A stretch of 64,000 nucleotides of DNA. It comes from Liolophura sinensis. Taxonomy: Eukaryota; Mollusca; Polyplacophora; Chitonida; Chitonidae. The notes below the pieces were generated by a model. The model made no database searches and had not been told where the DNA came from. It saw nothing but the letters and a program-made list of their open reading frames with translations. Location of the stretch: NCBI RefSeq assembly GCF_032854445.1, contig NC_088301.1, forward strand, positions 27,140,402-27,204,401. The letters run 5' to 3'. The position numbers were made by a program, and so were the translations under genes. How positions within the stretch are numbered: the stretch's first letter is position 1; each line of letters begins with the position of its first letter. This document shows positions 3,001 through 55,400 of this stretch, piece by piece.

Positions 3001-6000
3001 GGCATATCTTGATTTACACATGTATTTGTGTTTCCCAAGTAATTTTTTTGATGGGACTGCGAGCAGGCCATGACCTCATGATTATGCATTAAGTTGACCT
3101 TGCTGTCACTCCCACTTATGTACAAGGAATTTGTTTGGTGCAAAAGCAATGATGTGTGAACAGTGTTCCGCTGTGTTGTCTCACATGAAGTTTACTGCAG
3201 ACCAGTTGTCTCCCACCATTATGACATGTCTAATGTGAAAAAGTTTGAGAGTACCTTGCCAAAGGCTGGTGGTTTTCTATGGGCATTCTGAAACCAGCCA
3301 CCATCCTTAGGTATGTGGCTTATAAAGAACAATACAGTACGTAAGTCAATAATGAAGGTACTTGGCGTGCCTGGCTGGCTAAGAAAGTTAATGGGTTCTG
3401 CTGTATGTCAACGACCCCGTGAGGTGGATTATTAACAGTCAACTCCAGGCTGCTTTGATTTCAGGATGATGTATTTTGGGAAACAAATGGGTACCTGTAT
3501 GCCGAAACAGTAAACAAATCCATTTAAGTCTTTAAGTTTTCTTCTATCATTTTAAGACATGAACTGATGTCAGTTTTTTTTCATTTTTGAACTTTCAGAC
3601 TTTAAAAACACAATGTCTGCTAATAAACATACAGACACAGACATTGCACTACTGAAAACCAAACTCAACGAAGAGAAAATCAAGAAAGAACAGGTGAGTT
3701 GGTATTAGTAAGTTAAAGAGGTCTTTTTGATTTTTTTTAAACAAGATTGAATGATATTCCCTCGTTTTAACCATGAGGATTTTTGTCTTGGGTCTCTCCT
3801 CACATCAGCATCAATACCAGTACCAGGGGTCACCCCATTTAACTGGTTAACTTGGGAGAGGCCTTGTGGGCCAAGAATTGTGGAATTCCCAGGCCTTTTT
3901 TAGGTTTAGAATTAACTGCAAAAAGTCGCTGACCGAAAGACACGTGTTGTTTGAGGTCTATGTACTTGTCCTCCTCAGTAATACTGGGATTTTCAGTCAA
4001 ATACAAAAGACATTATGAAAGTGTGCTATGATTTATGTTCATCTTATTGTTTAGCATCGAGTAGAAACCATCTTTTTAGATGATTAATTCTTTGTAAATT
4101 TCAGCACATTTAGGTGCTACTGAATTAAATGTTGAATGAATGAATCACAGACAAATCGAACAAGCACTTTGCCTCTTTGAGTAATTGCTGATCTAGCAGC
4201 ATGGGTATTGATTTATGATGTCAAGACTGACAACAAAATGTGCTGATTTATTCCCTCACAGGCTGTCAACAAATTGGCTGAGATTATGAACAGAAAAGAG
4301 TTTAGGAACACTAATAAACGTGGAAGCGTCAATTCATCAGAACTGAAGAAAAAAGAGAAAGAGTGCAGAAAACTTCAGCAGGAGTTAACAATGGTGAGTA
4401 AACAGGTTAAGGTAAGATAACTTGTTGGTTAGAGAGCAGAGAGCTCAAGTTCAGCTGATTCTAGCTACCTCTCCGGTAAATATTTGGGAAGACCAGCAAC
4501 TTTCAGACAGAAATGGGTTTCATCCCACCATATTTTTGAGTATTCCATAAAACATCAATCAGATATATAAAACAAGTTAGATACTAGAAATTGCAGCTGA
4601 TTTTGCCTAAGATTATGTTTTTGGACATTCTATTGCTTGTAGATATAACTTAGTGTGGGTTATAAATCTGCTACTTTAAATGTCTAAAGTAAATGAAAAA
4701 CTTCTGGCTGTTAGAAAAAAAAACTTGTTTCAGCCTCATGTGTTGGTTATGTTGAAAAAGTCAGACTTGAAATTGGTCTCCTTGTAAGGGCTAAGAAGTT
4801 CATAAAAGTTATAATGTTTCAATTTATGAAAAGCACTTTTGTCCAGCGTTTCTTTTTTGGTGACTATTTCAGGAGAGAGAGAAGTATAACAAAATGGTAG
4901 ATAAGTACCAAAGAGATTTGTCCGAGACTCAAGCTGCTCTGTACGAGGAGGGACAAGGTCGCAATAAACTACAGATGGAGATGGATGCCAAGGACTGTGA
5001 GATTGAGCAGCTGCGCTCTAAGTTGTTCTACATCAGTAATGACAGTGGTTCTGTGAACAGCGGAACTCTGGAAGAGGATGCTGCGACTGGTGAGAGACGG
5101 GCTCGATGGCTAGCCTGCAGTTTTTACGTTTTTTTGACAGGCCTCTAACTGGTGAGAGACGGGCTCGATAGCTAGCCTGCAGTTTTTACGTTTTTTTTGA
5201 CAGGCCTCTGACCAGCTTTTTCCTCTGCTCTGGACAGCTTTCAGTGAACAACTTAAAAACTTCAACTTCACTTGTAGATATTTTTGGCATTTTTCACCAG
5301 GCAGTATTGGTTTCACCTCAGTTGGTCTGTTTACACCATGTATAGATGCTGCAGATTACAAAATAAGATGATCTTACGGCAGTTATATGGATGGTGCTGT
5401 AACTTACTGGTTTTTCTATGCAAACAAGATGAAGTGTAAAGAAAATTTAGCCAACTGCTGAAATTACACCGAGTTGTGTTGAAGTAAAGCTGAAAGTTAT
5501 TTTATGAAAGCAGTAGTGAGTGAAAAAAAAGTTTGTTGAAGGTCAGAAGAAAAAGGAGGATCAAGAGCGGGGGCATGATGAAGGGAAAAAACTTTGAAAA
5601 GGGGAACAGCAGTACACAAAGAATGGGCGTTTCTGTTAAATCTGTGTGCACTGTGTATTCCAAGTTTCTCTTGTGCTCACCTGTCAGAGACCTCTGTGGG
5701 GGCCTCTTTGGGTCTAGAAGGTTAGTGTGCTAGCACAGTGCAATGACCCAGAAGACTCCCACCAATGCAGTCACTGTGAATTCAGCTTTTTCTGACTTCC
5801 TCTTCGACTGTACGTGGGAAGGTCTACCAGCAACTTGCAGGGCATGGGTTTCCCCTGAGCTCTGCCAGGTTTCCTCCAATCATAATGCTGGCCGTCTTAT
5901 AAGTGAAAAATATTCTTGAGCATAGCGACCGGCCCGGATAGCACAGTTGGTAGAGCGTCCGCTTCAGGACCGGTAGATCCAGGATCAATCCTTGATCGAG

Positions 6001-9000
6001 TCACACCTAAGACTTTAAAAGAGGAAGTTGTAACTTCCTCGCTTGGCGTTCAGCATGAAGGGGATAGTGCAACGACTGGTTGACCCGTATCAGTATAATG
6101 GCTCGGGCGGGGCGGCTTAGTTGCCTTCGGTAAGTCGTCTCAGTGAAGCAGCACTAAATAAAAGAGCGGTGGAAATCCGTCCTGCAACAAGGAGGCACAT
6201 TACACGTACATGCACCCTAATGATTCCTTCGTCATCATATGACTGAAAAATTGTTGAGTACGACGTTAAACCCCAAGCACTCACTAACTCACTCTTGAGC
6301 ATAGCGTAAAATAACAATCAATCAAATAAATAAATAAGTCAAATACCTGTGTTCCAGGTGAGAATCATATGGAAGGATGGCTAGCTGTACCTGCTGGGAA
6401 AAAGACCAAAGGAATAACGTGGAAGAAACAGTTCATCGTGGTCAGCAGCAAAAAAATATTTTTCTACAACTCGGAGAATGACAAGATGGCAGCAGATCCT
6501 ATTATGGTGATAGATATTGAGTACGTTGATGAAAATTGCCTTTTGTTGTCAGTTAAAACTGCAGATCAATTAACATGTAATACCAAAACAACTTGAGTCA
6601 TCTGAATTTCACTTTCGTCAGTGCCTGAAACAGTTATTTTACTTGTGTGCTATTAACAATGAATGATACATTTAATTGTAACATTGGTGTAGCAAAACTT
6701 ATTTTACATCTGATCCATATGATCCGTCATCTAAACCAGTTTATAAACTTGCTTAACTCTAAACTCAGTAGCAACATGCGGCTGGTCGTGGGTTTCCCCC
6801 CTCGGTTTCCCTCCGCCATAACACTGGTTGCTGTTGTATAAGTGAAATGTTCTTGAGTACGACCTAGATCAATATCGAATTTCGAACTATTTTGAGAAAT
6901 TACAGACCAACACAGAATTATCATCTTCTTTCCCTCTTCAGCAGACCAGTTTGTTGTTCTGACTGAATCTGACATTTAATCATATTTGTGATTCATGTTT
7001 CAGAAAATTATTCCATGTGCGTCCAGTTACACAGGGTGATGTGTACAGGGCAGAAGCCAAAGACATCCCCAGAATATTCCAGGTAACTAGGCACTGGGTC
7101 AGACAGCTGTCTAAAGCTTAGGAGAATAGGCTACCTTTAAAATGAAGTATACTTCATCCAAAAAGTTCATTTCATACGGCCCACAAATATGGTGTTCATG
7201 ATTTCTTTACACTTTATATTTGCAATGAATAAACTGTAAATAAATATAAATGTTCTGCGGTGCCTGGCTGAAGGTAAATGTTACTCCGTTCATTAGCATT
7301 TAATTCAAATCATATAGATGGGCTCGGTTTCAAATACATCCCAGTGAGGCGCAGTGACCCAGGAGCCTCTCACCAATGTGGTCATTGTGAATTCAAGTCC
7401 AGCTCATGCTGACTTCCACTCTGGCAATACGTGAGGAGATCTGTCAGCAGCCTGCGAATGGTTGTGCGTTTCGAGAGCCCGGTTTCCTCCTACCATAATG
7501 CTGTCCATAAAACAGCAATCAAATCAATACATAAATAAACAAATACATATATTTGACACAGTTAACATGAGTAGTAACAATTTCATATTAAAGAGCTGAA
7601 GTGTAAATTATGGGGATGGGCCGTGTATGGGGATTAGATCGGGTGTCTTTGTATGGTGTCTTTGACTTCATTAGCATTGAATTCAAATTGCATAAATGGG
7701 CTTTGTTGCAAATAAATATCTTTGACACTCTTAACATGAATAACAGGTTTATGTAAAACCTGACCTAAAATCGATAGGGCTTGTTCCAGTCAATGTAAAG
7801 GGGATCAGGTGGAGTGTCGGTGTCTGGTGTCTTTGACCTGATATTGTGATTATGCAGCATTAACTGAACATTTAGGATATCACATAACGGAAAGACACTA
7901 TAACCCCAGATAAACCAACCAACCAGTACTGCTTTGTGAAAACTAGCCGGTGTGATGTTACATATTTTGTTCTTCATGTGTAGATACTATATGCCTCAGA
8001 AGGAGAAAACAGGAAGCTAGAAAGTCCCCAGGATCAGCAGACACAGGTAAGTGGGGCAGTTTTGTTTATTTTATTGGCAAGAATGGTGTTTTAGGACATT
8101 TTAAACCATGCCTTAAAGTGGTGGTTTAGAACATGTTAAACCATGTGTCGTTTTTGAACATGCATGCAAGTACATGTAGCTTGCAGTTTAGGTCACTGTT
8201 TACTGAGAATTAGCTGAAGAAAGTTATTATATTAAGTAAACACTGGCATTTAATGTACAGATAGTTTTGTGTCATCTTTTGGTTGCTGGATGTTTTGCTC
8301 TTGCATAGCAGGTTTTGATTAAAGACCGTGTACGTTGCTGTGTAATGGTTGTGATTGACCCAACATTTCCATGCCTAGACAAGCCGATTCCAAGCCATGT
8401 AAAAACACACACCATTGTCTGTTAGGCTTCAGTACTTGTGAACTGTCTCTTTGCTTTATAAGCACAACTGTATGCAGAAAGAGAATATTTTTGAGTATGG
8501 TGTAAAACACCAATCCAATAAATAAAGAAAGAGCGATGTATCACAGCATTTTGATTTTGATTTTGGATGATTCAGGGTGGTAGATTTCCTATACCTACAT
8601 GCACAAAGCATTATCAGTGACTATTGACAGTTTATTGAGGCATTTATTTGATTTTGATGTCATGAGTGTGGCATGGAGTGCAAAGACCTTGATTTGCTTT
8701 TACTTACCATGTACTGTAGATGATTTATTGAGGCAGCGTTTTGTTTTGAATGTTTCAGGGTGGTATGGAGTACAAAGGCCACGATTTCCTTGCTCTCCAT
8801 TTCCGCACGCCCACAACCTGTGAGACCTGCAATAAACCTGTCTGGCACATGCTGCATCCACCACCAGCCTTAGAGTGTCGGCGTAAGTACATTATGTATA
8901 TCTTAGTATCTTGATGTAGTGCTCATATCTCCACTTATCTCCACTTATAAGGTGCCACTTTTATATGCTGATAAAACTAAGCACTTGTATTGTCCTATTT

Positions 9001-10795: not shown

Positions 10796-10991
10796 CCATG
10801 GGACACGCCCCTCCTTAGATACTACTGATCTACTAATATTAGAACAATATGTTAAGGTGGGCAGTTTGCGCCAACTCATGATGTAGATTTTGTCTGAAGG
10901 TCTGACTTGTGCTGTCGGACATATTTATGTACTATTAGTTATGGCAGCCATCAAAATAGAAATCTGTCAAGGTTGCCAGTCAGAATTAATG

Positions 10992-10996
<5 letters not shown>

Positions 10997-11022
<26 letters not shown>
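10997..11022. repeat. (TA)n microsatellite
   Basis: Uninterrupted TA dinucleotides in the ROCK 3' region. Confidence 0.95.
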
Positions 11023-11028
<6 letters not shown>

Positions 11029-14952: not shown

Positions 14953-14957
<5 letters not shown>

Positions 14958-14993: not shown

Positions 14994-14998
<5 letters not shown>

Positions 14999-17340: not shown

Positions 17341-20300
17341 CTAAAAAAGTGACGTAAAGATGTGCTGACAAGTCGAAAACATTGTTTCAGAGACACAGGA
17401 AAAACACTTGTGCTGACAGGTTGAAAACAGTGTTGTAGAGACATGGGGAAGAGAGTAGTGCGGATGGGTTGAAAACAGTGTTGTAGAGACACGGGGAAGA
17501 GAGTAGTGCTGACGGGCTGAAAACAGTGTTGTTGAGACATGGGGAAGAGAGTAGTGCTGACAGGTTGAAAACAGAGTTATAGAAACAGGGGGAAGAGAGT
17601 AGTACTGACAGATTGAAAACAGTGTTGTAGAGACATGGGAAAAGAGTAGTGCTGACAGATGGAAAACAGTGTTGTAGTGACATGGGAAAGAGAATAGTGC
17701 TGACAGGTTGAAAACAGTGTTTTAGAGATATGGAGAAGGGAGTAGTGCTGACGGGTTGAAAACAGTGTTGTACAGACATTAGGAAGAGAGTATTGCTGAC
17801 GAGTTGAAAACAGTGTTGTTGAGACATGGGAAGAGAGTAGTGCTGACAGATGGAAAACAGTGTTGTAGAGACATGGGGAAGAGAATAGTGCTGACGGTTG
17901 AAAACTGTTTTATAGACATGGAGAAGAGAATAGTGCTGACGGGTTGAAAACAGTGTTGTACAGACATTAGGAAGAGAGTATTGCTGACGAGATGAAAACA
18001 GTGTTGTACAGATGGTTAATACTAATTTGAAGAATTGCAACAATAGCAGCACTGTAGCAGGGAAAATACAGTAGTTGGGGAAATAAAACAAAAAAATCCA
18101 AGAAAATAAATATCCAATTACATAAGCTAAATACGTACATGTATGGGGGTAGATGGCAAAGACAAAAGAGTGCAAATGTACCCATTTACTAGTCATTACT
18201 ACCTGGTTATTTAACCACATAATTTGTCAATTAAACAGAACTGCAATGCACTGAATACTCAGTGCCAATACATCTTATTACTCCCAAACTACACTTACAA
18301 GTTTCCTCAGTCTTCTCTAACAGTCCAAACTCCATGCAGGCTTCCAGAAAGCAGACGGCTCTGTCAAAATGTCTCATCCCGTACAACATCTCCACAACCT
18401 TGAGGAACTGACCCAAGGACAACATGACCAACACAGCCTTACTCTGTGAATGTAGAATGCGGAGATCAACGATGGACTGGATGGTAAAGGCATCGATATA
18501 TGCAACAAGAATCAGAGGTGTAGCAAGGCTACAAGTGGCGTAGCCCTGCGATATATGCATGTAGAGATGTAGCAGAACTACATATAGTGTAGCAGAACTA
18601 CATGTAGTGTAGCATCCCAAAAACAAAAGTTTCAGAACCTCAAGACAATCTCGTCGGTTAACACGCTAGCGCAGCGTAATGACCCAGAAGCCTCTCACCA
18701 ATGCAGTCGCTGTGAGTTCAAGACCAGCTCATGCTGGCTTCCTCTCCGGCCATATGTGGGAAGGTCTGCCAGCAGCCTGCGGATGGTCGTGGGTTTCCTC
18801 CTGGCTCTGCTCGGTTTCCACCCACCATAATGCTGGCCGCCGTCGTATAAGTGAAATATTCTTGAGTACAACGTAAAACAGCAATCATGAAGATCTGTTG
18901 AAAACTGATAACAATTGACCCAAACATAAAGCCTTACTCTGAGGCTACATATACATTTGTGAAGTGAACGTGAGCACGCCAAGTCCAGAACATGGTAGTT
19001 TTTACCAAAACAGAAAAATCAAGTACCGTTTCAAGTTTCATGAACGTATCATGAAAACCTGGACAACAGCTGACCCAAACAAAAAAGCTTACTTCGTACC
19101 GGTGAACTAAAAATGCAAATATCCCTATTTAGTCATAATGCTTAAATCCACAAATTTTGTTCACCATTTCCACCAATTTTCATATAGACAATGTGAAAAC
19201 TGTTGAAATATTTGACCCAAACATAAAACATTACACTGGCCTACAAAACTGAACAGTCTAAAAAACCTAACAATTTGAATACAAATGCAAACATCCCAAA
19301 TTTATAATCAAAATCAGCAAATGTTCAAATTATGTTCATCATTCCAACCAAGTTTCATAAAGGTGATGTGAAAACTGAAACTAGCAGACCCAAACAAAAG
19401 CTGTTACTCAACTGACCCAATCAAAAAAGCTGACTCTGACTCTGACACCGACGGACCTTTTCTCCCACACTCAAAATACCTTGCCTTACTTCGTCACAGT
19501 GAGCTAAAAACTGGCTTCTTGTAAATAAAATGACTTCTGAAGTTAGGACAATGAACTTATAAACTTAATGCAGTGAAAAGAAACACAAACTATGTTCTAA
19601 AGCTATCAGAATTCCGCTGGTGCTCAGACTGACCTTTTGGTTGGCATGAGGCCCACACAGATGATCTGCCCACCTCTTCATCACCTCACTATATTCTGAG
19701 AACTGCAAGCTGGCCTGAGAAGACAAAATGAGCACATGAAAATTGTTATTCTGTAGTCTAACAATGCATAATGAGCTCTTGAGAACTTTTTATGTGATCT
19801 GACCACAAAACTATCTGCACAAGAGAACTGTTATTCTTTGTCTTAACAGCACAAAGTCTGTACCATTACATGAGAACTATTATTCTGTGTCAAAAACAGC
19901 ACAAAGTCTGTACTGCTACATGAGAACAGTTATTCTGTGTCAAAAACAGCACAAAGTCTTTACTGCTACATGAGAACAGTTATTCTGTGTCAAAAACAGC
20001 AGAAAGTCTTTACTGCTACATGAGAACAGTTATTTTGTGTAAAAAAAAACAGGACAAAGTCTGTACAGCTACATGAGAACAGTTATTCTGTGTGAAGAAC
20101 AGCACCAAATCTCTACTGCTACAGGAGAATAGTTAATGTGTGCATTAACAGCACAAAGTCTATATCGTTACATGAGAATAGTTATTCTGTGTCAAAAACA
20201 GCACAAAATCTGTACTGCTACATGAGAACAGTTATTCTGTGTCAAAAACAGCAGAAAGTCTTTACTGCTACATGAGAACTATTATTCTGTGTCAAAAACA

Positions 20301-23300
20301 GCACAAAGTCTGTACTGCTACATGAGAACAGTTATTCTGTGTGAAGAACAGCACCAAATCTGTACTGCTACAGGAGAACCGTTAATGTGTGCATTAACAG
20401 CACAAAGTCTGTACCGTTACATGAGAACAGTTATTTTGTGTCTTAACAGCACAAAATTTGTACCGCTACATGAGAACTTTTATTCTGTGGCCTGACAACA
20501 CAACTGTCAATAAAGAAGAGCTGCTATTCTGTGATCTGACAATACAAAACCCTCTAGCCTAGTCGGCATTGTAAACTACATTACCTTAGCGAGCCAGGCT
20601 GCCTGATGCCAGACCCCATAAGTCTGGAGATAGCGACAGGCATCTAGTCCCTTGTCTATCAGACACAGCAACTGGACGCCCTCTGCAACAGGAATAGGCC
20701 ATGTTTACGTTTTACAATAAAGAACACTTAAATGTTAGATAGAGACTGACTAGTGCAGAAGGATATTTCACATGTAAAGTGACAATAAGTTAAATGAGTG
20801 GAGGAAAGCAGGGTGCCTGGAGCAAACCATGGACCTTTGGCAAGTAACTGAAACACTTTTGTAAGAACGTACAGATTTTCACTGGAAGAATAAACTCAAT
20901 GTGTATGCCACTACCTTGGTTATGGCCTAATGATTTGAACTGAACTGGAAATGGGACAGTGTTTATTAGTAGAAATTTACCAGAGAGGCGACCATTAGCG
21001 ATGAGGTTGGTGGCGACCAGTTTGATAGTGCTCTGCGAGGCTCCTGATGAACGAATACTGGCGACCAGGCAGGCTCTGTAAACAGAAAAGTCCACAAAGC
21101 ATAAGAGAGTATTTCAAAAGCAGGATCATACCATACAACATAGGGAGTTCTCTTGAACTGTCTTACTCAGAATCTAGAGTAGCTATATTCGAAATAAAAT
21201 TTCATCTGTCATGAAATTATTCATTTTGCCTTTAGAGAGTTCTGTGGATCATACAAAAGTTCTTTCAGTTTTTTTCGTTCAACCGCAGGATAATATTCTA
21301 CAGGTTTAATGTAAGTTTCAGCAGAAAACATAATGTTTTTTACCCTTTTTTTGTCTCTATTTGATTTTCTCAGGCTGATACCAGACCCGTCTGCTATGCC
21401 TCTTCAAGACATATCAAACATTTGAAAACAGTAAGCCATTAACATTGCTTGGAAAAACTGTGCAGTTTCACTTCGGCGTTACAATAAAAAACGTTATCCT
21501 CAAAAGATGACATTAATATAACCTGAGCTGCACATCAGTGAGTTCAGGCATTAAGGAGTGCCATACAAAATTCAGTCAACTGCCTTAGACTAGGCATATG
21601 CATGGTAGTGACACTATGATGTAGCGCAGCATCTTTATGGCAGAAAGGATATGATTTGGTTATATTTATAAAGGATATACGACGAGTGACCCATTATATC
21701 AGTTTCATTATTAAACGGTGGCGAGGAACACAGGAAAATTACATCACGAGTTTAAATAAATTTGATATAATGGGTCATGAATTGATGTAATTTGTTGCTC
21801 GCCAAAGGCTCAGAACAAATGAAAATTAGATCACGAGTTTAATAAATCTGATATAATGGATCAAGAATTGCATATCCTATTTATCCCATAAACTATTCTG
21901 AATGGATTTAGGTGGTTAATAGAGAAGATAACGTTTGTTTGTTTTGACAAGTATGTAAATGAGATGCGTATTGATATTGATATATGTGAAACGGTTGGAG
22001 CCGAACCACACATTTAACTACACAGCAGTTTTTGAAAACATTGAAGAAGTCCATGATTTCTGGGAACAGAAAACATACCACAGTCCTTTAGTGTGCTATA
22101 AAATGACGTGCTTTGATTTTTTTTTCTCAAAAATGTCGGCATTCATAACTGTTCATTTATGGAAACATTTGGCTCCAAAATTGTAACCTAAATATAGGTC
22201 GTATCTCAATGACGTCACGTGATGACATTTAGGGTGCGCGAAGTGGTGATGTTGAAATCATACTAAACAGAATATTTAAATTTACGCTTTTAATGTGAAT
22301 AATTCACTCAAAACTTATTTGCTGATCTTACTAACCACCACGGAGCTTGGAGAATGCATCAAAACAGTGCCAAACAATCAAGAATATTTTACTCATATGA
22401 CAGGGGTTAGTTTTATGGCTAGAGAATCTCACCAATGCGGTCGCTGTGAGTTCAAGTCTAGCTTCCTCTCCAGCTGTATGTGGGAAGGTCTGACAGCAAC
22501 CTGTGGATGGTCCTGGGTTGCCTCCCACCACAACGCTGGCCATCATGGTATAAATGAAATATTCTTGAGTATGGTGTGAAACATCAATCAAACAAATAAA
22601 TATGGATGCAGAAAACCACTGACCTTTGGCAAGTCTCTGACAAAACTTTGCCCTGTGTGACGTACAGAGGTGCACAATATATTGGTGGAAGATAGCTGGG
22701 CTTCAACAAACGGAAGACTAGCAAAGGCTGGGTCACACGAGTGTCGTCAACTGATTGTTTTCACTGCGCCTCTACTGATTCATTGAGAATCTACAAATTC
22801 CCCGTTCAAGGTTAGGATTGAACTCACACTTCACTAATCATACATCAATACACATTTGGTTCAGGACAACCTAGTTACACACAGACATGGTTTCCCAATC
22901 ATATCAAGGCGTATTCCTATGCACACTTACAAAAGCGAGTCGACATAGTAGCTGTCATTCTCAGACTCCGTCTCTAACAGCAGCTGTACAGCACGGTCGG
23001 TCTGACCCAGAAGAATGTAGTTCTCTGCGCACTTCTTGGTGTGTTCATACGTCGCTCGTTTACTGTCGTGTAGGGCCACGCGATCCAACTGATACTTCTG
23101 ATAATGACAGCAATATACATCCTGATGAAATCTTCAAATACAACATAACAGCTAAACACACTTTACAAAGTACAAGTCATGACAAAACTAACCAGTAACT
23201 TGCCTGTGGTATATGTTTAACAATTTTACGCACTCGGAGGATAAGTCCCCTAATTCTTCTAATTTTTGGGATACCTGGTCTGCTCTTTTCAGCCAATATA

Positions 23301-40400: not shown

Positions 40401-43400
40401 CCACAACAGAGAAGCCGTGATCAAATTAATGACCATTTGCATACAGTGGCCCTGACATTTCTGTTTTTCACGGCCAATAAAACGGCAAGCTTTCAAAGTA
40501 ACACTTTTTACTCTTTGGCATTCTCACTTTCTCCATTGTTTTCCCCTATAAGTTACTGTAAATGGGGACAGGATTTCCAATGCAGAATTTCAAAGAAACA
40601 GATATTTAATGTAGCAAGCATGCTGCCGTTAGGTTAAAACAGACTGTTGAGTGAAAATTAGCACCCAGCTTCCGTGTAATGCGAGATCCCGCAACATTCC
40701 TGTTAAAAAAATGGCGGCCTTCTGAAATGCAAAAGTGACTTTTAGTGTAGGTATGGATCTGATATTTACTGAAACGTCATAATTGAAGTCATTCTTGGTA
40801 TAAATGGAAAATTTGTTTGGATCTGCGCTGATCGAATTCTTTGACAAAATTTGAAGATACAGCCTCTTTAATAAACCAGAGCTATGAGATTTACAGGTGA
40901 ATGGATCTTAAATGCCTGTAAATTGCAGATTTTAACATGACAAGACTTGCCAGGCCTAAGGGCAATGATAAAATGATGGATTTTTCACCTGATAATGGTA
41001 TAAAGGTGAGACATTCGTCAGGTTATACCATTATCAGGTGAGACATCCATCAGGTTATACCATTATCGGGGGCCTCCGTGGCTCAGTCGGTTAGCGCGCT
41101 AGTGCAGCGTAATGACCCAGGAGTCTCTCACCAATGCGGTCGCTCTGAGTTCAAGTCCACCTCATGCTGGCTTCCTCTTTGACTGTGTGTGGGAAGGTCT
41201 GCAGCAACCTGCGGATGGTCGTGGGTTTCCCCCAGGCTCTGCCCGGTTTCCTCCCACCATAACGCTGGCCGCCGTCATATAAGTGAAATATTCTTGAGTA
41301 CGGTGTAAAACACCAATCAAATAAATACCATTATCAGGTAAGACATTCTTCAGAGTATGCCATTATCAGGTGAGATATCCATCAGGTTATACCATTATTG
41401 GGTGAGACATCCTTCAGGCTGTACCATTATTGGGTGAGAAATCCATGACGTTAAGGCCCGTTCTCGTGATGCGATTTGTAGTACCAGCTTGTAGAATCGA
41501 CTTATAGTGTTTGACAAAAATCGCATGGAAAATGGTCACTTTTTCTGCTAAGGTACTGGCGTTTTTTGTTAACATGTTTGTCATGATGAGTTGCTGGCTG
41601 TAATTTACATGATGTGTAATTTCATGGTAGATCTTGACAGAGATAGTAAGCAAATGACAAATGACACAGTGAGAACAGGCCTTAACGTCATGGATTTCTC
41701 ACCCAATAATCGTACAGCCTGATGGATGTCTCACCCAATAATGGTATAACCTCATGGATGTCTCACCAGATAATGGTATAACCTGATGGATGTCTTACCT
41801 GATAATGGTATGAACTGATGGATGTCTCACCTGATAATGGTATAACCTGATGGATGTCTCACCTGATAATGGTGTAACCTGATGAATGTCTCACCTGATA
41901 ATGGTATAACCTGATGGATGTCTCACCTGATAATGGTATAAACTGATGGATGTCTCACCTGATAATGGTGTAACCTGATGGATGTCTCACCTGATAATGG
42001 TGTAACCTGATGAATGTCTCACCTGATAATGGTATAACCTGATGGATGTCACACCCAATAATGGTATAACCTGCTGGATGTCTCACATGATAATGGTATA
42101 AACTGATGGATGTCTCACCTGATAATGGTATGAACTGATGGATGTCTCACCTGACACTGGTATAACCTGATGGATGTCTCACCTGATAATGGTATGACCT
42201 GATGGATGTCTCACCTGATAGTGGTATAACCTGATGGATGTCTCACCTGATAATGGTATGACCTGATGGATGTCTCACCTGATAGTGGTATAACCTTATT
42301 GATGTCTCACCTGATAATGGCATGACCTGATGGATGTCTCACCTGATAGTGGTATAACCTTATTGATGTCTCACCTGATAATGGTATGACCTGATGAATG
42401 TCTCACCTGATAACAGTATAACCTGATGGATGTCTCACCCAATAATGGTATAACCTGATGGATGTCTCACTTGATAATGGTATGACTTGATGGATGTCTC
42501 ACCTGATAACAGTATAACCTCATGGATGTCTCACCCAATAATGGTATAACCTGATGGATGTCTCACCTGATAATGGTGTAACCTGATGAATGTCTCACCT
42601 GATAATGGTATAACCTGATGGATGTCACACCCAATAATGGTATAACCTGCTGGATGTCTCACATGATAATGGTATAACCTGATGCACGTCTCACCTTATA
42701 ATGGTATAACCTGACAAATGTCTCACCTGATACTGGTATAACCTGATGGATGTCTCACCTGATAATGGTGTAACCTGATGGATGTCTCACCTGATAATGG
42801 TGTAACCTGATGGATGTCTCACCTGATAATGGCATAACCTGATGGATGTCTCACATGATAATGGTATAACCTAATGGATGTCTCACCTGATAATGGTATA
42901 ACCTGATGGAGGTCTCACTCGATAATGGTATAACCTGATGCACGTCTCACCTTATAATGGTATAACCTGACGAATGTCTCACCTGATAATGGTGTAACCT
43001 TATGGATGTCTCACCTGATAATGGAGGTGTGAACACTGTACTCCTTCACCAGCTGACCACTAGACAGGTTGTAGATCTGTATATAGCCCGTCTGTGTACC
43101 TGTCCATGATACAAACAACAGTAAAGTATAAACACTGAAGATAATTTTATTATTTTATTTCAATGTTATACATTCACTTCTACAATGGGAGTCGGTTTTA
43201 TGGGTTTATCTACTGTAATTCATGCCAGAAGAAGGTATTAGGTTAACAAATTTAACCAAGCAATTGGTAGTTTTATCTTTTTGCAGTGTTCAAACATATG
43301 GACCTTTGGAAAGTGACATTTTGCAAAATGTGTGATGTATGGATATCTCCACCATATTTGTCAAAGGTCTTGAACACGTGTTCACGAGTAAGCTAGCGCT

Positions 43401-46400
43401 AACAGCCACACCAGTGACCCTCAACTGCTAAATGTCACCGAGTCTACACAAGGGGAAAGCAAATGTCCCACAAACTCCCTGTCCTTGAACTCGCATTCCA
43501 GTGACTGGAAGACTACTTGGCAATAACCAATGCCCCACTTTGTCATATAAAACATATATGTACACATATTGAATAATATAACTGCTGCAGGAAATGTGTC
43601 CCAAACTACATCTTACGTTGACAGCGCTGGATTTGTTTTATATATTTATTTGATTGTTGTTGTAATGCCATAATCAAGAATTTTTTTCTCCTACAGGTCA
43701 GGTTTTTGGTTTAGGACACCAGGGACAGCACTGGGCAGAGAGACATACCCAATGCTAACAGTGGTTGGAAGTAACTCCAATTCTTTGTGGTCATTGGTGG
43801 GCACATCCGCAGGACAGACACATGACCCATCACTCCGCTGATCAGACCGGTCAGCAGAAGTTTCATCACTACAGTGTGCTTAGGCTGAATGGCCACACTG
43901 TCAGACATGGTGTTCTGGGACTGGCCAATCAAATCTGCCATGGTCAGCCTTGGATATGGTACGTCACTCAGGATTGGTAGTTTAGCCATGGCTTCTGGTT
44001 TGTTGTTGATGGTCAGCTGACTGAAGTCTGTCAGAGACACCCCTGGTGTGTACAGTGGGGAAGAGAAGGCCTGGTTGTTCACATTGTTATCCTGGAACAG
44101 ACAAGATTAGCTGACATGAGGAGAGAGTCGTTAGTTGACAGAGAGACTTACTGATAATATAACTGATTCATGATGCAAAATGCATTAACTTTCTGAGATT
44201 CATACTGTCAGGTCTCTGAACTAGGTTCTCAAGTTACACTTAAGCATGAATGGAATACATGTGAAGTAATGGTTCCTGCCACACGGCCACATCTAAGTCA
44301 GCGGTCAAGGTCACATGATCTGACAGCTCATCAGAAAGTGCAGTTAAATATGCAAATTTTAGGGATGACATTATAATTCATGGGGATTGCATAATTCCAT
44401 GTTTACATTTTAACGAAGACTTTCTACTGAAAGTTATCCACATGACAGGAACAAACAAATACACCTACCATAACATTAATTGTCTTAATTTCCCAGAAGA
44501 TGACCCGGCTGTCACTCATAATAAGGGCCACTCCCCTTTCTGTGACTGGCGACATGGCCACGCCCAGCACCTTACTGTGTTTGGTTAATCTCATAGGGTC
44601 TGACTGACACCTCAGGTCATAGGCCACATCCAAGGACACCTGAGGGGGTGTGTCATCTGAAAATTGATAGCCAGTAATATTAAATGTATTCAGCTGAAGT
44701 GAGCAAATGGTTTCATATACTATAAAGTCATCAGACTGGATTAGTTGCAGTCAAATGAAGAAAAAGGAACACGTAAAACACAAGACATATTCTCCTCTCT
44801 TTATACGGTAATTATATGGCCTTTTCGACCAACTGAGCAGCACTCGTGGTCGAAGTCCTCAAGGGAAAGTTGACAAAACAGGGTCAGGGGCTGTAGGGGG
44901 AATCTGAAGTTGAACCGTGGGTGCTTCATGTTTCTCACCCATGTAACTATAGCTAATATAGAAAGTCTGTAGGTGTCAACTGGTCAGCGATGAGCATGGC
45001 TACACTCTCGCCAGTGAAGGGGCGACGTAGACTTGGAGTGGTTAGTCTGAGACAAACACACAAGGCAAAAATGTAGACCCATTCGCTCAGGTGATTTCCC
45101 AAGTCACGCTGTCTCTTACGTAATATCATTTGTTCAATGCTGGCAATGGTGGACTGCGAAACACTGTAATAGCCTATTACACTGCTTTATTTATTATAAA
45201 AGCTCATGTGTAAGAGCTTGCTTAAGTGGCATTTAGAAGTCGGTGAGGAGGTACACTGGACAAGGCATTCTTATGGATGTACAACTTCTTGGTTTATTTA
45301 ACACAACGTTTCGATGCAGATACTAGCATCGTTATCAAGTGAATGACATCAAAATTACTACTGCGCTTATATATAGCAAGAGATGCAAATGTCAACAGAT
45401 AAAACAAAAAAGAGGGTAAACAGTCCTCAGGGGATTAAGGTGTCCTGGGGTGGGTGTTGGCGTACTGACTAGGCTCGGTGGGGTTCCTGAGCGGTTTGGA
45501 GGATTAGCAGATCATAAGCTGAGGGGAGGTAGATGCCGTGATCTCTGTTCAGGCTGGGCTTTAATCTCTTAATCTGGATGGCTTCCTGTAGTTTTCGTTT
45601 CTTCCAATGGGGCTGATTCATGTTCAGTGTCCTGACTGTATTCCAGTTGATGATGTGGGATGTACTGATGATTGGTGTTCTTTAATTCTGGTTTGAAGCG
45701 GTCTGCCTGTTTCACCTATGTAGGAGTTGTTGCAACTGCATTTTAATTGGTAGACAACTCCTTTGGGTGGCTGGGGTTTGGTTGGTGTCTTCTTTCCTGT
45801 GGCATGTAGGTGGGTCTTTAGTGTAATCAGGCTTCTGATTCTTCTTGGTTTTGGGTGGGTGGTTGGACTTGTAGTGGATGTACTGGTCGGAGTGGGTCGG
45901 TTTGCGGTACACTGTGGTTTGGAGAGCGTCTGCTGTTCTCTTCACGTGGACATCTAGGAATGGTATTTGTTGATCTTTCTCAGTTTCCATGGTGAATTTG
46001 ATGCGTTGGTGTTGTGAATTTAGGTGGTCAAGTAAGGCAGATGGATCTTGGTGGTGTTGAAGTGCGACGAAGGTATCGTCCACTTTTCGCATCCAACAGA
46101 TGGGCTGGATGGGTGACGTGGCTAAGGCTTTGTTCTCTAGTTCAGTTAGGTAGATCTCGGAGACAATCGGTGATAGTGGGGATCCCATGGGGAGGCCATG
46201 GATCTGCTCATAAATTGTGTCACCCCAAGTGAAGTAAGTGGATGACAGGCAACAGTCCAGTAGGCTGATGATGTTATCTGGGGATAGGGATGTCGTCGGT
46301 GGTGTGGCTGTTATCTTGTCTCTTATCACATCTAGGGCTTGGCTGGTTGGGACATTGGTAAATAGGTCAACAACGTCGTAGCTCACAAGTTTGCAGGGTT

Positions 46401-49400
46401 CATTGATCTGACATATTTTGTAACAGAAGTCAGCTGAGTCTTTGATAAAGGAGTCGGCAGCCTTAGACCATAGTGATAGTAGTTTCGTGAGGTACTGGGC
46501 AGTGTTATAGAAGACAGTTCCTCTGGAGCATATCAGTAACCTGGCTTTTACAGGGTCCTTGTGGATTTTGATGGTTGCACGGGCATACGGTGCACGGGGG
46601 TGTTGCACTGTTAACTTTTGTTGGATTTCAGGTGTGATCTCACCACTGGTTTTGAGTTGGTTCAGGAGGGATCTGTGTTGCCGGTCAAACTTGTTGGTGG
46701 GGTCAGTTTTCAGGGTTCGGTATGTGGACTGGTCTGTTAGTAAGTTGTCTACCAGTTTGTTAAAATCTGTTTTGTCAAGAATGGCTGCGGCTTTTCCTTT
46801 ATCAGCTGGTGCTATGGTTATGGACTTGTCTTTCTTCAGTTCGACCAGGGCTCTGCTTTCTTCTTTACCCGCTGGGTAACCTGAATCACCCGCTGGGTAA
46901 CCTGAACCACCCGCTGGGTAACCTGAACCACCTGCTGGGTAACATGAACCACCCGCTGGGTAACCTGAACCACCCGCTGGGTAACCTGAACCACCCGCTG
47001 GGTAACCTGAACCACCTGCTGGGTAACCTGAACCACCCACTGGGTAACCTGAACCACCTGCTGGGTAACCTGAACCACCCGCTGGGTAATCTGAACCACC
47101 TGCTGGGTAATCTGAACCACCCGCCATAATCAGTCAAACTTTCTTGTTCAGGGTTTCCAAGATTTTTTTTTTGTCCTTTCATCAGATTGAACACAATATT
47201 GTTAAAAACGAGCCACTGTGCTGCTCTGACTCAACGTTACAAGTCTCTTCTTGTAAGAAAAACCCTCTTTGTTTGAACCAAAACATACATATGTCTCGAT
47301 CCTCGTGATTTAACAATAGCATTCTTTGTGTGGAAACTTAGGAGAGGAAGGGTCAATCTAAATTAAAACATTCACCGATGCAGTGTAGCTGACAGTTGGA
47401 GAAGCAGTTGTTAGCTTGCCAGTTTGACAGGAAAATGCTTTGAGACAGTTTCAGAATTTACAGGTACGTAAACAACTGTGACTTGATACTTTCTTCACTT
47501 TAATTCATGGGTAGAAATAAAGGTACTGTCAAGCCTGTACCCATTGGACTACTTTCATGTCACCAAGCATGTGCACTGCCTTCCCGTGCTTGTCTAGCCA
47601 CCAGTCGACTTACTTATTTATTTACTTGATTGGTGTTTTACGCTGTACTCAAGAATTTTTCACTTATATGATGGAATACAGCATTATGGTGGGAGGAAAC
47701 TCATACTGGTGGTGGACAAGTGGGTGAGGGAAACCTGAATACACACGGCCCACGAATTACAGCCTTGTGCGTCATACTGGTGGTGGACAAGTGGGTGAGG
47801 GAAACCTCACTGCACAAGGCCCACGAGTTACAGCCTTGTGCATCACACTGGTGGTGGACAATTGGGTGAGGGAAACCTGAATACACACGGCCCACGAGTT
47901 ACAGCCTTGTGCGTCATACTGGTGGTGGACAAGTGGGTGAGGGAAACCTGAATACACACGGCCCACGAATTACAGCCTTGTGCGTCATACTGGTGGTGGA
48001 CAAGTGGGTGAGGGAAACCTCAATGCACAAGGCCCACGAGTTACAGCCTTGTGCATCATACTGGTGGTGGACAAGTGGGTGAGGGAAACCTGAATGCACA
48101 CGGCCCACGAGTTACAGCCTTGTGCGTCATACTGGTGGTGGAGAAGTGGGTGAGGGAAACCTCAATACACGAGGCCCACGAGTTACAGCCTTGTGCGTCA
48201 TATTGGTGGTGGACAAGTGGGTGAGGGAAGCCTCAATACACATGGCCCACGAGTTACAGCCTTGTGCGTCATACTGGTGGAGGACAAGTGGGTGAGGGAA
48301 ACCTCAATACACGAGGCCCACAAGTTACAGCCTTGTGCGTCATACTGGTGGTGGACAAGTGGGTGAGGGAAACCTCAATCCACGAGGCCCACAAGTTACA
48401 GCCTTGTGCATCATACTGGTGGTGGACAAGTGGGTGAGGGAAACCTCAATACACGAGGCCCACGAGTTACAGTCTTGTGCGTCATACTGGTGGTGGACAA
48501 GTGGGTGAGGGAAACCTCAATACACGAGGCCCACGAGTTACAGCCTTGTGCGTCATACTGGTGGTGGACAAGTGGGTGAGGGAAACCTCAATACACGAGG
48601 CCCACGAGTTACAGCCTTGTGCGTCATACTGGTGGTGGACAAGTGGGTGAGGGAAACCTCAATACACGTGTTACAGCCTTGTGTGTAGTACTGGTGGTGG
48701 ACAAGTGGGTGAGGGAAACCTCAATACACGAGGCCCACGAGTTACAGCCTTGTGCGTCATACTGGTGGTGGACAAGTGGGTGAGGGAAACCTCAATACAC
48801 GTGTTACAGCCTTGTGTATGGTACTGGCGGTGGACAAGTGGGTGAGGGACACCTCAATACACGAGGCCCACGAGTTACAGCCTTGTGCGTCATACTGGTG
48901 GTGGACAAGTGGGTGAGGGAAACCTCAATACACGAGGCCCACGAGTTACAGCCTTGTGCGTCATACTGGTGATGGACAAGTGGGTGAGGGAAACCTCAAT
49001 ACACACAGCCCACGAGTTACAGCCTTGTGCGTCATACTGGTGGTGGACAAGTGGGTGAGGGAAACCTCAATACACGTGTTACAGCCTTGTGTGTAGTACT
49101 GGTAGTGCTTAAAGGAAAAGACCTCTAAAAATCGTAGATTTTCATAAATCCCACCATAGTTTTTACATATTTGAAAGACTCTTGAAAGAGTGAAATGAAA
49201 GCATTTTTATGCCTGCTTTTCAGTTGTCTGTATGATGAACCTTACTTCGTATTTTAGCTTTCTTTTACTTTAATGAACATAAAACTGCGCAAATGGCCCT
49301 GCAAGTGACATCATCCACTTTCTGTCACCATGGTAACGGCATAGTTTAAGGACTAAACGCTTGCAGTTACACTTTTCCCCCAAATGGGTGATTTTGCCAC

Positions 49401-52400
49401 TTAATATATAACAAGGTAGATGGAGGATAAGGATAGCAAAGGCAACATAGATATAATCCTACCAAATGCTCCAGTGCCTTCAGAGGCTGGCGTGCAGATG
49501 ACGTTGGTCTTCCTCCTCACACGTACAGTCACACTACCGTTGTCATGGAGACACATCAGCGCATCTCTCTGTCTGCAGGACAGTATCTGAAAAAATAGCG
49601 CAACAGAGTTAGTGAGATAATATTGATGAATTTTAGCACTAAACTAGCCAGACACATGATCTACAAATGTACTGTAAATGACCTAAAATTTTGTCCATGG
49701 CCAAGCTGCTCTGCCTGATTCTGAGATATCTACTGATGTTAACAAGGCATTCAGGGAATACTAGTACCTCACCTGATTGAACAGTTTGCTCATCATGTGA
49801 TACATTCAAATATTGGCCTTTAAAACAAAAAACGAGAGTGATTGACACTGTCATACACAGATATTATCCTCTAATTACATAGTGCTAGGATCTTGCCATT
49901 AAATCAACAAAAAAGAACAAAATTATTATACTGTCACAACTATGACTGTTTATCGTATGCATAGGAATTGCAGGGCAGTGACTTTGTATGTTATGGAGTT
50001 GTAAATTATTGTGGTGGTAAAATACATTATGGGAGTTTGGTGCACAACTTTACCACAGGGGTCTGCGATATGCAAATCGCAAACTGCAATTGTCAATCTA
50101 TGTACTATGGGAGGCAATTGCATTCCTGTGACTAGCTGAGCAAAGACTTCCTTGGTCTTTGCAGACTGCTACCCACGGTTGGCTATCTGTGTACTATGGG
50201 TGGCCATTGCAACCCTATCACTGGCCAAAACTTTAAACAAACTGGACACTGACACCAACAGCATCTGATTCAATACCTCTCCCTGATTGGTAAGTGAGCT
50301 AAAAAGAACTTTTGTGGTTGTTTGAAAAGTAAGAAAATATTCTCTTCAAAAAATATAAGATTCAGTACCAAAAGTAATATCTTATGACATTTGTTTGCCT
50401 GTGGAAAAGCACATTATTAGCAAAACCAAATACTCAGTTCTCAACACATAGGACAATTCACACAAATACAAGCGGCTGTCCCACCTGTCTGAAGGGTGAG
50501 CCAGTCCTCTCTATGCGACACCAAATACTCAGTTCTCAACACATGGGACAATTCAAACAAATACAGCGGGCTGTCCCACCTGTGTGAAGGCTGAGCCAGT
50601 CCTCTCCATGGGACACCAAATACTCAATTCTCACACACGGGACTATTCTCACAAATACAGCGGGCTGTCCCACCTGTGTGAAGGCTGAGCCAGTCCTCTC
50701 CATGGGACACCAAATACTCAGTTCTCAACACATTGGACTATTCTCACAAATACAGCGGGCTGTCCCACATGTCTGAAGGCTGAGCCAGTCCTCTCCATGG
50801 GACACCAAATACTCAGTTCTCAACACATTGGACTATTCTCACATATACAGCTGTCCCACTTGTGTGAAGGCTGAGCCAGTCCTCTCCATGAGACACCAAA
50901 TACTCAATTCTCAACACAAGGACTATTCTCACATATACAGCTGTCCCACTTGTGTGAAGGCTGAGCCAGTCCTCTCCATGGGACACCAAATACTCAATTC
51001 TCAACACAAGGACTATTCTCACAAATACAGCGGGCTGTCCCACCTGTGTGAAGGCTGAGCCAGTCCTCTCCATGGGACACCAAATACTCAATTCTCAACA
51101 CACGGGACTATTCACACAAATACAGCGGGCTGTCCCACCTGTCTGAAGGCTGAGCCAGTCCTCTCCATGAGACACCAAATACTCAATTCTCAACACAAGG
51201 ACTATTCTCACAAATACAGCGGGCTGTCCCACCTGTGTGAAGGCTGAGCCAGTCCTCTCCATGGGACACCAAATACTCAATTCTCAACACACGGGACTAT
51301 TCTCACAAATACAGTGGGCTGTCCCACTTGTGTGAAGGCTGAGCCAGTCCTCTCCATGGGACACCAAATACTCAATTCTCAACACACGGGACTATTCACA
51401 CAAATACAGCGGGCTGTCCCACTTGTATGAAGGGTGAGCCAATCCTCTCCATGGGACACCAAATACTCAATTCTCAACACATTGGACTATTCACAGGAAT
51501 ACAGCGACTATCCCACCTGTGTGAAGGCTGAGCCAGTCCTCTCCATGGGACACCAAATACTCAGTTCTCAACACATAGGACACTTCACACAAATACAGCG
51601 GGCTGTTCCACCTGTGTGAAGGCTGAGCCAGTCCTCTCTATGCGACACCAAATACTCAATTCTCAACACATGGGACAATTCAAACAAATACAGCGGGCTG
51701 TCCCACCTGTGTGAAGGCTGAGCCAATTCCTCTCCATGGGACACCAAATACTCAGTTCTCAACACATAGGACAATTTTCACAAATACAGCGGGCTGTCCC
51801 AACTGTCTGAAGGGTGAGCCAGTCCTCTCCATGGGACACCAAATACTCAGTTCTCAACACATAGGACTATTCACACAAATACAGCGGGCTGTCCCACCTG
51901 TGTGAAGGCTGAGCCAGTCCTCTTCATGGGACCCCAAATATTCAGTTCTCAACACATAGGACAATTCACACAAATACAGCGGGCTGTCCCACCTGTATGA
52001 AGGCTGAGCCAGTCCTCTCCATTGGACACCAAATACTCAGTTCTCAACACATAGGACAATGCACACAAATACAGCGGGCTGTCCCACCTGTGTGAAGGCT
52101 GAGCCAGTCCTCTCCATGGGACACCAAATACTCAGTTCTCAACACATAGGACAATTCACACAAATACAGTGCGCTGTCCCACCTGTGTGAAGGCTGAGCC
52201 AGTCCTCTCCATGGGACACCAAATACTCAGTTCTCAACACATGGGACTATTCTCACAAATACAGCGGGCTGTCCCAACAGTCTGAAGGCTGAGCCAGTCC
52301 TCTCCATGAGACACCAAATACTCAATTCTCAACACACGGGACTATTCTCACAAATACAGTGGGCTGTCCCACCTGTGTGAAGGCTGAGCCAGTCCTCTCC

Positions 52401-55400
52401 ATGGGACACCAAATACTCAATTCTCAACACATGGGACTATTCTCACAAATACAACGGGCTGTCCCACTTGTGTGAAGGCTGAGCCAGTCCTCTTCATGGG
52501 ACACCAAATACTCAATTCTCAACACATGGGACTATTCTCACAAATACAGTGGGCTGTCCCACCTGTGTGAAGGCTGAGCCAGTCCTCTCCATGGGACACC
52601 AAATACTCAGTTCTCAACACATAGGACAATTCACACAAATACAGCGGGCTGTCCCACCTGTCTGAAGGCTGAGCCAGTCCTCTCCATGGGACACCAAATA
52701 CTCAGTTCTCAACACATAGGACAATTCACACAAATACAGCGGGCTGTCCCACCTGTGTGAAGGCTGAGCCAGTCCTCTCCATGGGACACCAAATACTCAA
52801 TTCTCAACACATGGGACTATTCTCACAAATACAGTGGGCTGTCCTACCTGTGTGAAGGGTGAGCCAGTCCTCTCCATGGGTATCGTGCCCACTGTCTGAT
52901 TGATCTCCAAGTCCAGGATGAGCAGTTCCCGGGGGTAGAGCAGGATCAGATGGTGACGGCAAGCCTGGTGATACACCAGCTGTATACACTCATTCAGGTT
53001 CACACTCTCCTCCACTGACTTGTTGGAGCTGGAAGATTGAATGATTAGTACTTAATGTACCTGCCTGAGAATTTTCTTTTACATGACAGCAGTATGGTTT
53101 ACTGGCTGAGGAAACCTACATTGAGGTAAGTGCTTGGAATAAACCACCAACCTTTGGCAAGTACTAGGCCAAAAACGAAAGTAAGAAACAAAGTGATTTA
53201 TTATTAGATTGTGTGATCCACTGCAGTGCATTATTTTGGCAGATTTTGCGCATCACCAGTTTGGGAACCAAAAGTAGGAAATACATGTATAATGACATTA
53301 ACTCCTGCTGTGCCCTATCCATCTGATCCAACCAAAATTGAAAGACAGAAAGACAAAAATCTGCTTTTTCTTTGTATGAAGGTTTCGTGGAGATATTTAT
53401 GTAACACTTCTTTTAGCTCTGTTTTATACTGCATCCCAAAGATCTATGAAACTATCAAATTAAATCAGCTCTTGAACCTTTTGGATGGGCATCCAGACTT
53501 TTATCCAACATCTGACACTCATCAGGCTTACGTAGGAATTTTGATTTGATTCATATCTAAACACATTATTTCATTTATTTATTTGCGTGGTGTTTTACGC
53601 CGTACTCAAAAATATTTCACTTAGAAGACGGCAACCAGTATTACAGTGGGAGGAAACCGGCCAGAACCAGGAGGAAACTCACAACCATCCACAGGTTGGT
53701 GCCAGACCTTCTCAGGTACAGCCGGAGAGGAAGTCAGCATGAGCTGGACTTGAACTCACAGCGACCACATTGGTGAGAGGCTTCTGGGCCTTTGCACTGT
53801 GCTGGCGTGCAAGACACCTCTGTCACAGAGGACCCCATATGCATATAGAGGAAAATGGCCAGAACCTGAGGGAAACCCACATTCATCTGCAGGTTGCTGG
53901 CAGACCATCCCACGTATGGCCAGAGAGGAGTCAAGGAAGAGCTGGACCGCAATGGTGAGTGCCTCTAGTGTCATCATAATGGCGTGCTAACCACAGAGGC
54001 CTTGTAAAGATATGTCCCATACAACTTTGAGTGTGATACCGTTACAGGTACGTGAGTATGTATATGTACTTACCTTTGTTTCACTTCTCCCACGAGTATT
54101 CGGCTCACCCTTTTAGCTAAAGTGCTCGACTCTCTCCTCTCTGCATTGTTGTTCACATTTCCTGTATCAAAATTAGACATGAAGGATAACGCTTCACGGC
54201 AATCCTGGTGCTTTGTAAATTTGTTACATGTACCTCTGCCAAGGAGATTACTTTTTTTTTCAGGCTATTTATTCAATTTTATTTCACTTTTTTGACTTAC
54301 AAGATGGCAGTCAGCATTGTGGGTGGTACCTGGAATAAACCATCTACCGTAAATCGGGCAGAGCTTAGCCGACGATTTCAAAAAGATTATCCCATGATTC
54401 CTTGTGTGTGACTGTGATTCTTGGTAAGTGGACACAGCTGGAGGGGGGGCAGTCGGGGGGGGGGAGGGGCAGTGGGGGGTCTCAGGAGTGTGTTCACAGG
54501 ATTGCACGTGCCTGTGACCAGACCAGTAAACCTGTTCACGCTTCACTGAACATTCAACTGTTAGCTCTAGTAGAATCGCTACACAGCTACTGCCAGAATG
54601 CACATCTCATGTACATTGTGCCGAGTGATTCGTGCCAAAACGCTTCAGTGAGAAATGAAATGTTAGCACAAGTACCATCTACATATCTTCTACCAGAATG
54701 CATGTTTCACGCATGGTCTGCAACAGCATGTCGTGCAGACTGAGGTTAGACGGTGGACCAGTAACAAATAGGCCTACACTGATAAGTGTGCAGGTCGTTT
54801 AAAACAATCACTGAACAACAAATATGTGTCTAAAGTCAATAATTACCCATATGCGCTTAAGAAGCTAATTTTCAAAATACAAATACAACACTTCACTGCT
54901 CCGATTTACCGCGATTAGGTCCAGCTTTGCCTGTGTTAGAGTAGGAAAATCCACTTTCACGCAATTTGCTTGAATCAGAACTCATGATTACACCTTACCA
55001 GTGTAGGCCTTGACGACCTAACAATAGCACTCATTATATGGAAATTATAGAGGAGAAAGTGCCAAACTATAACCTATTAAGTATTCAGATATAAACGGCT
55101 GAGTTGTACTGATATCATGGGTAATCCCAACCTTTTGCACAGCTTTGGGTATAGTCACTGAAGTTTCAACATAGTTTAGGAGACCCGTCAATCACAGCAT
55201 AGACCCGATCCAAACATCTGATGTTTTGACAATTGTTTTTAATTCTACTTGCTGTAAATGGGTTACGTGTCTTGATTACATGGCTTTACTGAAATGGTTT
55301 AGCACCAAAATCCAAAACGGTCTCAGGAAAAATTACTGAACATGCATTTCACTGGGCACGTGGCTGTATGTAAATTAATGGACCTCCGTCTGCTAGTCTA

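Follow-up and report, generated by a model that had tools for sequence, protein, structure and literature searches.

Minisatellite arrays that span splice junctions in the genome of the chiton Liolophura sinensis

Duplicated splice sites have been described in several systems. In models of intron gain and sliding, tandem duplication of an AGGT segment duplicates a splice site, and one of the copies keeps the exon intact (PMC2891723, PMC4974935); in an intron-gain case from potato, the duplication extends across the boundary between intron and exon. Dual-specific AG|GT sites are arranged in tandem rows in the polyubiquitin gene UBC (PMC10809524), adjacent duplicated donor elements are found at the intron start of Lipomyces [D] stwintrons (PMC7138796), C. 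elegans minisatellites lie within introns, beside exons, near alternative splicing regions (PMC4039745), and introners are repeats tied to splice sites genome-wide (PMC9860276). The present analysis concerns tandem arrays found at exon ends in a window of 64,000 nt (C7:27140402-27204401, the whole stretch of DNA analysed) from the genome of the chiton Liolophura sinensis (609 Mb, 632 contigs). The window contains the 3' part of a ROCK gene on the + strand, a convergent WDR11 gene on the - strand and a reverse-transcriptase frame inside a WDR11 intron. Four arrays in the window span 5' splice sites (donors), and in genes sampled outside it donors and 3' splice sites (acceptors) are both found within arrays, which are linked to exon edges in general, donors not significantly exceeding acceptors.

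The window arrays have the structure of minisatellites, or candidate variable number tandem repeats, being composed of head-to-tail copies of a unit of ~10-100 bp. The intron-gain model considers single duplications which produce a new intron, whereas the chiton arrays comprise from 2 to more than 40 copies within existing introns: the array makes up a portion of the intron, the acceptor (or donor) is located elsewhere and, in WDR11, kilobases separate the end of the array or unit from the next exon, so that the duplicated segment is not itself an intron. In UBC whole coding monomers are repeated and splicing varies their number, while the chiton units are intronic and mostly introduce a stop or a frameshift. 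The Lipomyces elements differ in being 4-7 nt long and present in duplicate, each of the two copies taking part in consecutive splicing. The C. elegans CeRep25B is one dispersed family, a candidate regulatory motif, whereas the unit of every chiton array is local and private to it. Introners, finally, are one mobile sequence present in many genes, unlike the 95-bp unit described below, which was found at one locus only in the whole genome; the other window units were compared with the fetched loci. A survey of the open-access literature on minisatellites and splice junctions found no many-copy arrays seeded on existing junctions genome-wide, which is not proof of absence.

Arrays spanning donor sites in the window

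Window arrays were detected by Tandem Repeats Finder (TRF; period of at least 20, score of at least 100), and exon ends were defined from the sequence letters together with an ab initio exon map. The 18 merged arrays obtained cover 19.0% of the window, and four of them include an exon end with its donor and extend into the intron. On the + strand, a tandem duplication of a 62-bp unit (2.0 copies, 5086-5209) spans the donor of the ROCK coiled-coil exon (4873-5089; coding score 33.2 in the exon map), which ends with CGACTG|GTGAGA, the intron starting at 5090. The remaining three lie on the - strand, each at the 3' end of a WDR11 exon. The 73-bp array (15.5 copies, 28286-29420) is made of units containing an exon tail, a GTGAGT donor and the head of the intron, and includes the end of exon 29384-29552 (TGCCAG|GTGAGT at 29384). 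The 32-bp array (41.9 copies, 41683-43024), whose unit consists of 10 nt of exon end, a GTGAGA donor and the intron head, includes the end of exon 43015-43099, the upstream boundary of which is uncertain (TATCAG|GTGAGA at 43015). The 95-bp array (26.0 copies, 50425-52880), with an exon tail, a GT[A/G]GGA donor and an intron head in each unit, includes the end of exon 52848-53028 (ACACAG|GTAGGA at 52848). According to the TRF edges, the 62-, 73-, 32- and 95-bp arrays overlap their exons by 4, 37, 10 and 33 nt, respectively, and are otherwise intronic.

An earlier sequence-only reading had described these four arrays, on which TRF, the sequence itself and the exon map agree. It had also considered their units unrelated, and this is borne out: among 13 window arrays, only the 32-bp array and an inverted neighbour share sequence. 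Its expectation that chance would rarely place a unit across a donor holds as well, 0.57-0.73 covered donors being expected at the deep-intron array rate (see below) against 4 observed among ~29 (P 0.003-0.007), in a test which is post hoc, the window having prompted the idea, and which uses donors hand-picked from the exon map. None of the acceptors of the window exon map falls inside the 18 merged arrays.

The exons concerned are genuine, and protein matches assign them to genes. A protein joined from four minus-strand exons, i.e. the three array-bearing ones and 29970-30076, matches WDR11 (PDB 8xfb_D, E 1.7e-46). The exon with the 95-bp array contributes its own matched stretch (i-E 5.8e-16), and the one with the 73-bp array shares a stretch with 29970-30076 (i-E 7.6e-23); the exon with the 32-bp array is a weak match alone (i-E 1.4), yet is collinear with 8xfb_D. 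ROCK was identified from the exon following the 62-bp array, which matches the ROCK2 PH domain (2rov_A, E 4.7e-11). Family and structure searches with the coiled-coil exon itself gave no specific match; it is tied to the PH exon by the reading frame, which runs on into 6358 onward.

The 32-bp unit recurs, inverted, at 41004-41453, with ~82-85% identity over ~130 bp, and this second block is split by a SINE-like (short interspersed element) insertion. The sequences at ~41437-41483 and ~41668-41710, beside the gap, form an inverted repeat, and the 32-bp array with its flank looks duplicated head to head.

Spanned junctions and array edges in sampled genes

The sample outside the window was made of exons with Pfam matches to myosin heads, kinesins, SNF2 helicases and protein kinases, fetched with their flanks. 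The rows used were 79 of 81 for myosin, 125 of 132 for kinesin and 51 of 58 for SNF2, those omitted mostly containing several stops, and 20 of 138 for kinase, which are hand-picked short internal matches. Sufficient sequence was available for 175 exons, in which 165 donors and 166 acceptors were called by using approximate scoring matrices. In 43 of the 175 exons a stop occurs inside the match, which there enters the intron, and these were retained. The exons fall into ~85 gene clusters and are therefore not independent; two of the spanned donors, at loci L019 and L026, belong to one myosin gene and are ~2.5 kb apart.

A junction was considered spanned when the founding unit, i.e. the repeat unit at the exon-side edge of the array, covers the splice site. 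This was the case for 11 of the 165 donors and 6 of the 166 acceptors, the sequences being also checked by eye, and spanned junctions occur alike in myosin, kinesin, SNF2 and kinase genes. Four calls were altered by hand once the arrays had been seen: a changed donor (L068) lowered the spanned donors from 12 to 11, a changed acceptor (L044) raised the spanned acceptors from 5 to 6, and two donors (L088, L121) were moved but are spanned under either call. The least certain call is the donor of L100. Among the spanned donors, that of L019 is surrounded by 18 copies of a 31-bp unit, a kinesin donor (L057) by 21.6 copies of a 73-bp unit starting 54 nt inside the exon, and in an SNF2-family gene (L088) a 62-bp unit, wholly exon-side at its start, is repeated along with the donor. 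On the acceptor side, 11.8 copies of a 64-bp unit containing a polypyrimidine tract, the AG and the first exon codons precede the start of a kinesin exon encoding EAMSINKS (L044, C8:682171).

Chance coverage was estimated from array starts in deep introns (200-1400 bp from the exon), which amount to 0.28-0.33 per kb, or 0.37 after masking, i.e. removal of exon-like and dispersed-repeat sequence; the rate was converted into expected coverage by using the mean unit of 68 bp. The 11 covered donors compare with 3.3-4.2 expected (P 0.0006-0.004), and donors and acceptors together give 17 covered against 6.4-8.3 (P 0.0004-0.006). A strict filter, which drops L121 (score 90), leaves 10 of 165 donors (P 0.002-0.010). 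The excess of spanned donors is a property of the genome beyond the window, and the window itself (4 of ~29) does not differ from the sample (Fisher P 0.25).

The idea that 5' splice sites are special, also put forward in the first reading, is not sustained, because acceptors are covered too, array edges are dense at both exon ends, and the difference between 11 and 6 is not significant (P 0.24). That the donor itself, through U1 binding or RNA-DNA hybrids, promotes duplication is unlikely: it would fit the 4 donors and no acceptors spanned in the window, the 11 to 6 in the sample and a rotation test significant for donor-side edges only, but acceptors show an edge excess of their own and the strongest motif excess.

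Edges were counted in a near zone, which starts 60 bp inside the exon and reaches 100 bp into the intron, and in a deep zone of 200-1400 bp. After masking, 36 exon-side edges start in 46.0 kb of near sequence and 47 in 127.0 kb of deep sequence (ratio 2.11, P 0.0007); the ratio is 2.39 at donors (P 0.004), 1.85 at acceptors (P 0.044) and 1.95 for the exon side only (P 0.027). In long loci only, the donor ratio is 2.56 (P 0.013). When arrays were rotated in 60 long loci, 8 donor-side edges were observed against 2.06 expected, a number reached in none of 2000 rotations; spanning alone is not significant in this test (donors 2 against 0.74, P 0.17; acceptors 1 against 0.83, P 0.57). Arrays occupy 16.2% of 175.4 kb of non-exon sequence and 1.24% of 19.1 kb of exon sequence in the 60 loci, and exon-proximal edges more than 60 nt inside exons are nearly absent (2 starts in 14.8 kb on the donor side, none in 14.9 kb on the acceptor side), as expected if tolerance is limited to units straddling the edge.

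It may be asked whether tolerance alone would be enough, arrays being born uniformly and the excess being due to chance in the window and to deep introns where transposons and exons were left unmasked. This explanation is possible but less probable than the one preferred below. In line with it, masking reduced the near/deep ratio from ~2.6 to 2.1 with a mask which is incomplete, and within 60 bp of the donor edge density is similar on the exon and intron sides. The excess is however still significant after masking, the 100-200 bp bin is already low, with 6 starts against 22 in the 0-100 bp bin (P ~0.003), which counters confounding, and the annotation-free motif counts given below concur with an excess.

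Base composition and age were also considered. G+C is 0.428 in intronic and 0.430 in spanning array units, 0.370 in non-array intron and 0.468 in exons. Introns have no higher G+C in the 100 bp adjoining exons (0.34-0.38), so that G+C does not explain the intron-side excess; it could contribute on the exon side. The comparison of G+C, like that of donor-motif orientation, was performed after stricter filtering, with a single array taken from each cluster, leaving 9 donor- and 4 acceptor-spanning arrays. Longer retention was discarded, as near-exon arrays are not clearly older (median match 89 against 93%, P 0.15); they have more copies (9.1 against 6.5) and are longer (600 against 364 bp).

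Motifs repeated in tandem, i.e. three copies at 20-50 bp spacing, were counted genome-wide against the reversed motif, and the ratio was expressed relative to single occurrences. For CAGGTAAG, 895 tandem occurrences were found against 285 reversed (singles 30137 and 14611; ratio 1.52); for AAGGTAAG, 458 against 309 (singles 25000 and 27440; ratio 1.63); for the acceptor-like TTYTNCAGG, 795 against 167 (singles 68095 and 37096; ratio 2.59). The excess is larger for the acceptor motif, again at variance with a special role of donors. Matches overlap within arrays, and ~4-5 matches per array were assumed from the C1 rows listed; with clustering allowed for, the one-sided P is 0.0015, 0.0008 and <0.0001, respectively, the clustering of CAGGTAAG being borrowed for AAGGTAAG and for the controls.

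Later donor copies and other elements of the window

In 11 of 14 donor arrays, reading on past the first donor meets a stop in frame before a full unit is completed, the exceptions being L096, L121 and L091, where the stop follows after 1.3, 2.1 and 6.2 units. For this reason the first donor must be the main site, if the gene works. Splicing copies in and out would call for units which keep the frame, and the early stops do not agree with this; three sample units (30, 48 and 66) are divisible by 3. At the exon end of the donor-spanning junctions, AG|GT is found in 10 of 15 cases (sample, 7 of 11; window, 3 of 4).

Of the later copies of the donor, 112 of 155 (65 of 82 for the window alone) retain a score of at least 7, and conservation is 0.947 across the donor 9-mer, against 0.940 in the remainder of the unit. 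There is thus no sign that decoys are eliminated, or that their 9-mer is preserved to any special degree. Exon definition would be a natural way for the cell to ignore them.

Selection for repeated U1 sites in long introns, as in U1 telescripting, was among the explanations initially proposed, and is considered here together with selection for other splicing enhancers. The many strong later donors, together with the retention of GT in 304 of 310 later copies (94% at other positions, not base-matched), would agree with it. It is nevertheless disfavoured, because non-spanning intronic arrays show no sense preference: donor-like motifs scoring at least 8 occur in 5 sense and 3 antisense cases among 63 arrays, and those scoring at least 6 in 13 and 11, with block-shuffled expectations of 2.6 and 8.2, respectively. 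Moreover, the whole 9-mer is no better kept than its unit, and inner donors would give truncated products in the 11 arrays with early stops. Such selection is very unlikely to account for the arrays.

Other arrays and repeats are present in the window. A 48-bp array (17362-18012, -) is the one nearest to an acceptor, ending 22 nt from that of the last WDR11 exon, and a 50-bp array (19815-20489, -) occupies most of a WDR11 intron, ~100 nt from each exon; neither spans a junction. A 39-bp array (30216-31654, 37 copies) starts 140 bp upstream of a WDR11 acceptor and contains long frames free of stops on either strand (441 aa on the minus, 403 aa on the plus). The reverse-transcriptase frame (45715-47133, -) is an open frame of 473 aa which matches Pfam RVT_1 (E 6.8e-8) and is presumably Penelope-like; its N-terminal part is a coding 21-bp tandem array (46867-47124). 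SINE copies, of a type which we take to be tRNA-derived, are located at 1305-1508, 5930-6330 and 41075-41320 and are frequent among the fetched loci; one of them was miscalled as an exon by the exon finder.

Origin and significance of the arrays

The arrays are probably explained by a combination of frequent minisatellite birth and tolerance at exon edges, to which an about 2-fold excess of array edges near exons is added. The L. sinensis genome would form minisatellites at a high rate from any locally duplicated sequence, and by chance the first duplicated unit would at times straddle an exon edge. Such duplications may be tolerated because they leave the exon beside the original splice site intact: the correct nucleotides would still be joined through the first donor (or last acceptor), and the extra copies would merely lengthen the intron. 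Once tolerated, they would expand as any intronic array, producing rows of decoy splice sites which the cell must ignore, and junction-spanning arrays would exist because of this tolerance. The earlier suggestion that the first donor keeps the exon intact is retained in part: it fits the anatomy and is necessary, but by itself predicts no more than the deep-intron rate.

The ~2-fold excess, which extends within ~100 bp of exons on both sides, would go beyond what tolerance gives, and most likely derives from duplication being more frequent close to exon edges in the course of transcription and splicing. Candidate causes include transcriptional pausing, RNA-DNA hybrids at splice sites, chromatin edges at exons and residual confounding. 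Slippage promoted by donors or by their hybrids, as first proposed, could be extended to the two edges of the exon. A lead for the mechanism comes from a report in which R-loops and replication stress are linked to a 5' splice-site factor (PMC9613458). More specifically, donor and acceptor junctions could both be mutational hot spots for tandem duplication in L. sinensis, pausing and spliceosome assembly exposing DNA to slippage or break repair; this view is tentative.

A few points weigh against the combined explanation. Acceptors alone are not significant (6 covered against 3.1-4.2 expected, P 0.10-0.24), their edge excess is weak in long loci only (1.90, P 0.084), and array rotation gives 4 acceptor-side edges against 2.28 (P 0.19). 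The repeat mask covers 8% of the loci, compared with a published repeat content of 27.9%, and residual confounding may account in part for the excess relative to deep introns. The control motifs vary, with 1.95%, 1.13% and 0.45% tandem occurrences per single, in the order given above; for this reason the motif counts serve as supporting evidence only, ratios of 1.5-1.6 being no more than suggestive. That the exon-adjacent site is used is deduced from sequence, and the retention of GT could hint at selection to keep it.

Transposons bearing tandem repeats exist in molluscan genomes, and the arrays might be transposon-borne or, alternatively, made by the assembly. Both origins are highly improbable. 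The units hold local coding sequence, the 95-bp unit is confined to its locus and the tested window units have no matches in the fetched loci, except for the SINE within 41004-41453. An assembly artefact was judged unlikely, as the copies are diverged and the mean read exceeds the array length: the report on the chiton assembly (PMC11068029), whose species name was subsequently corrected to Liolophura sinensis (PMC12441733), gives PacBio HiFi data at 14x with a mean read of 8.3 kb.

If the sampled rates hold, about 1 in 15 donors and 1 in 30 acceptors belong to a minisatellite's founding unit, and in conserved genes, WDR11 among them, the real donor is followed by up to ~40 strong decoys. Such genes offer a natural experiment on how the spliceosome chooses among near-identical sites. 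The arrays also provide a route by which introns may lengthen from their ends, and duplications from which new introns could be gained. Whether duplication has hot spots at splice sites is a question which can be directly addressed by counting; if it has, splice sites would seed the minisatellites of this genome, and intron growth would start from exon edges.

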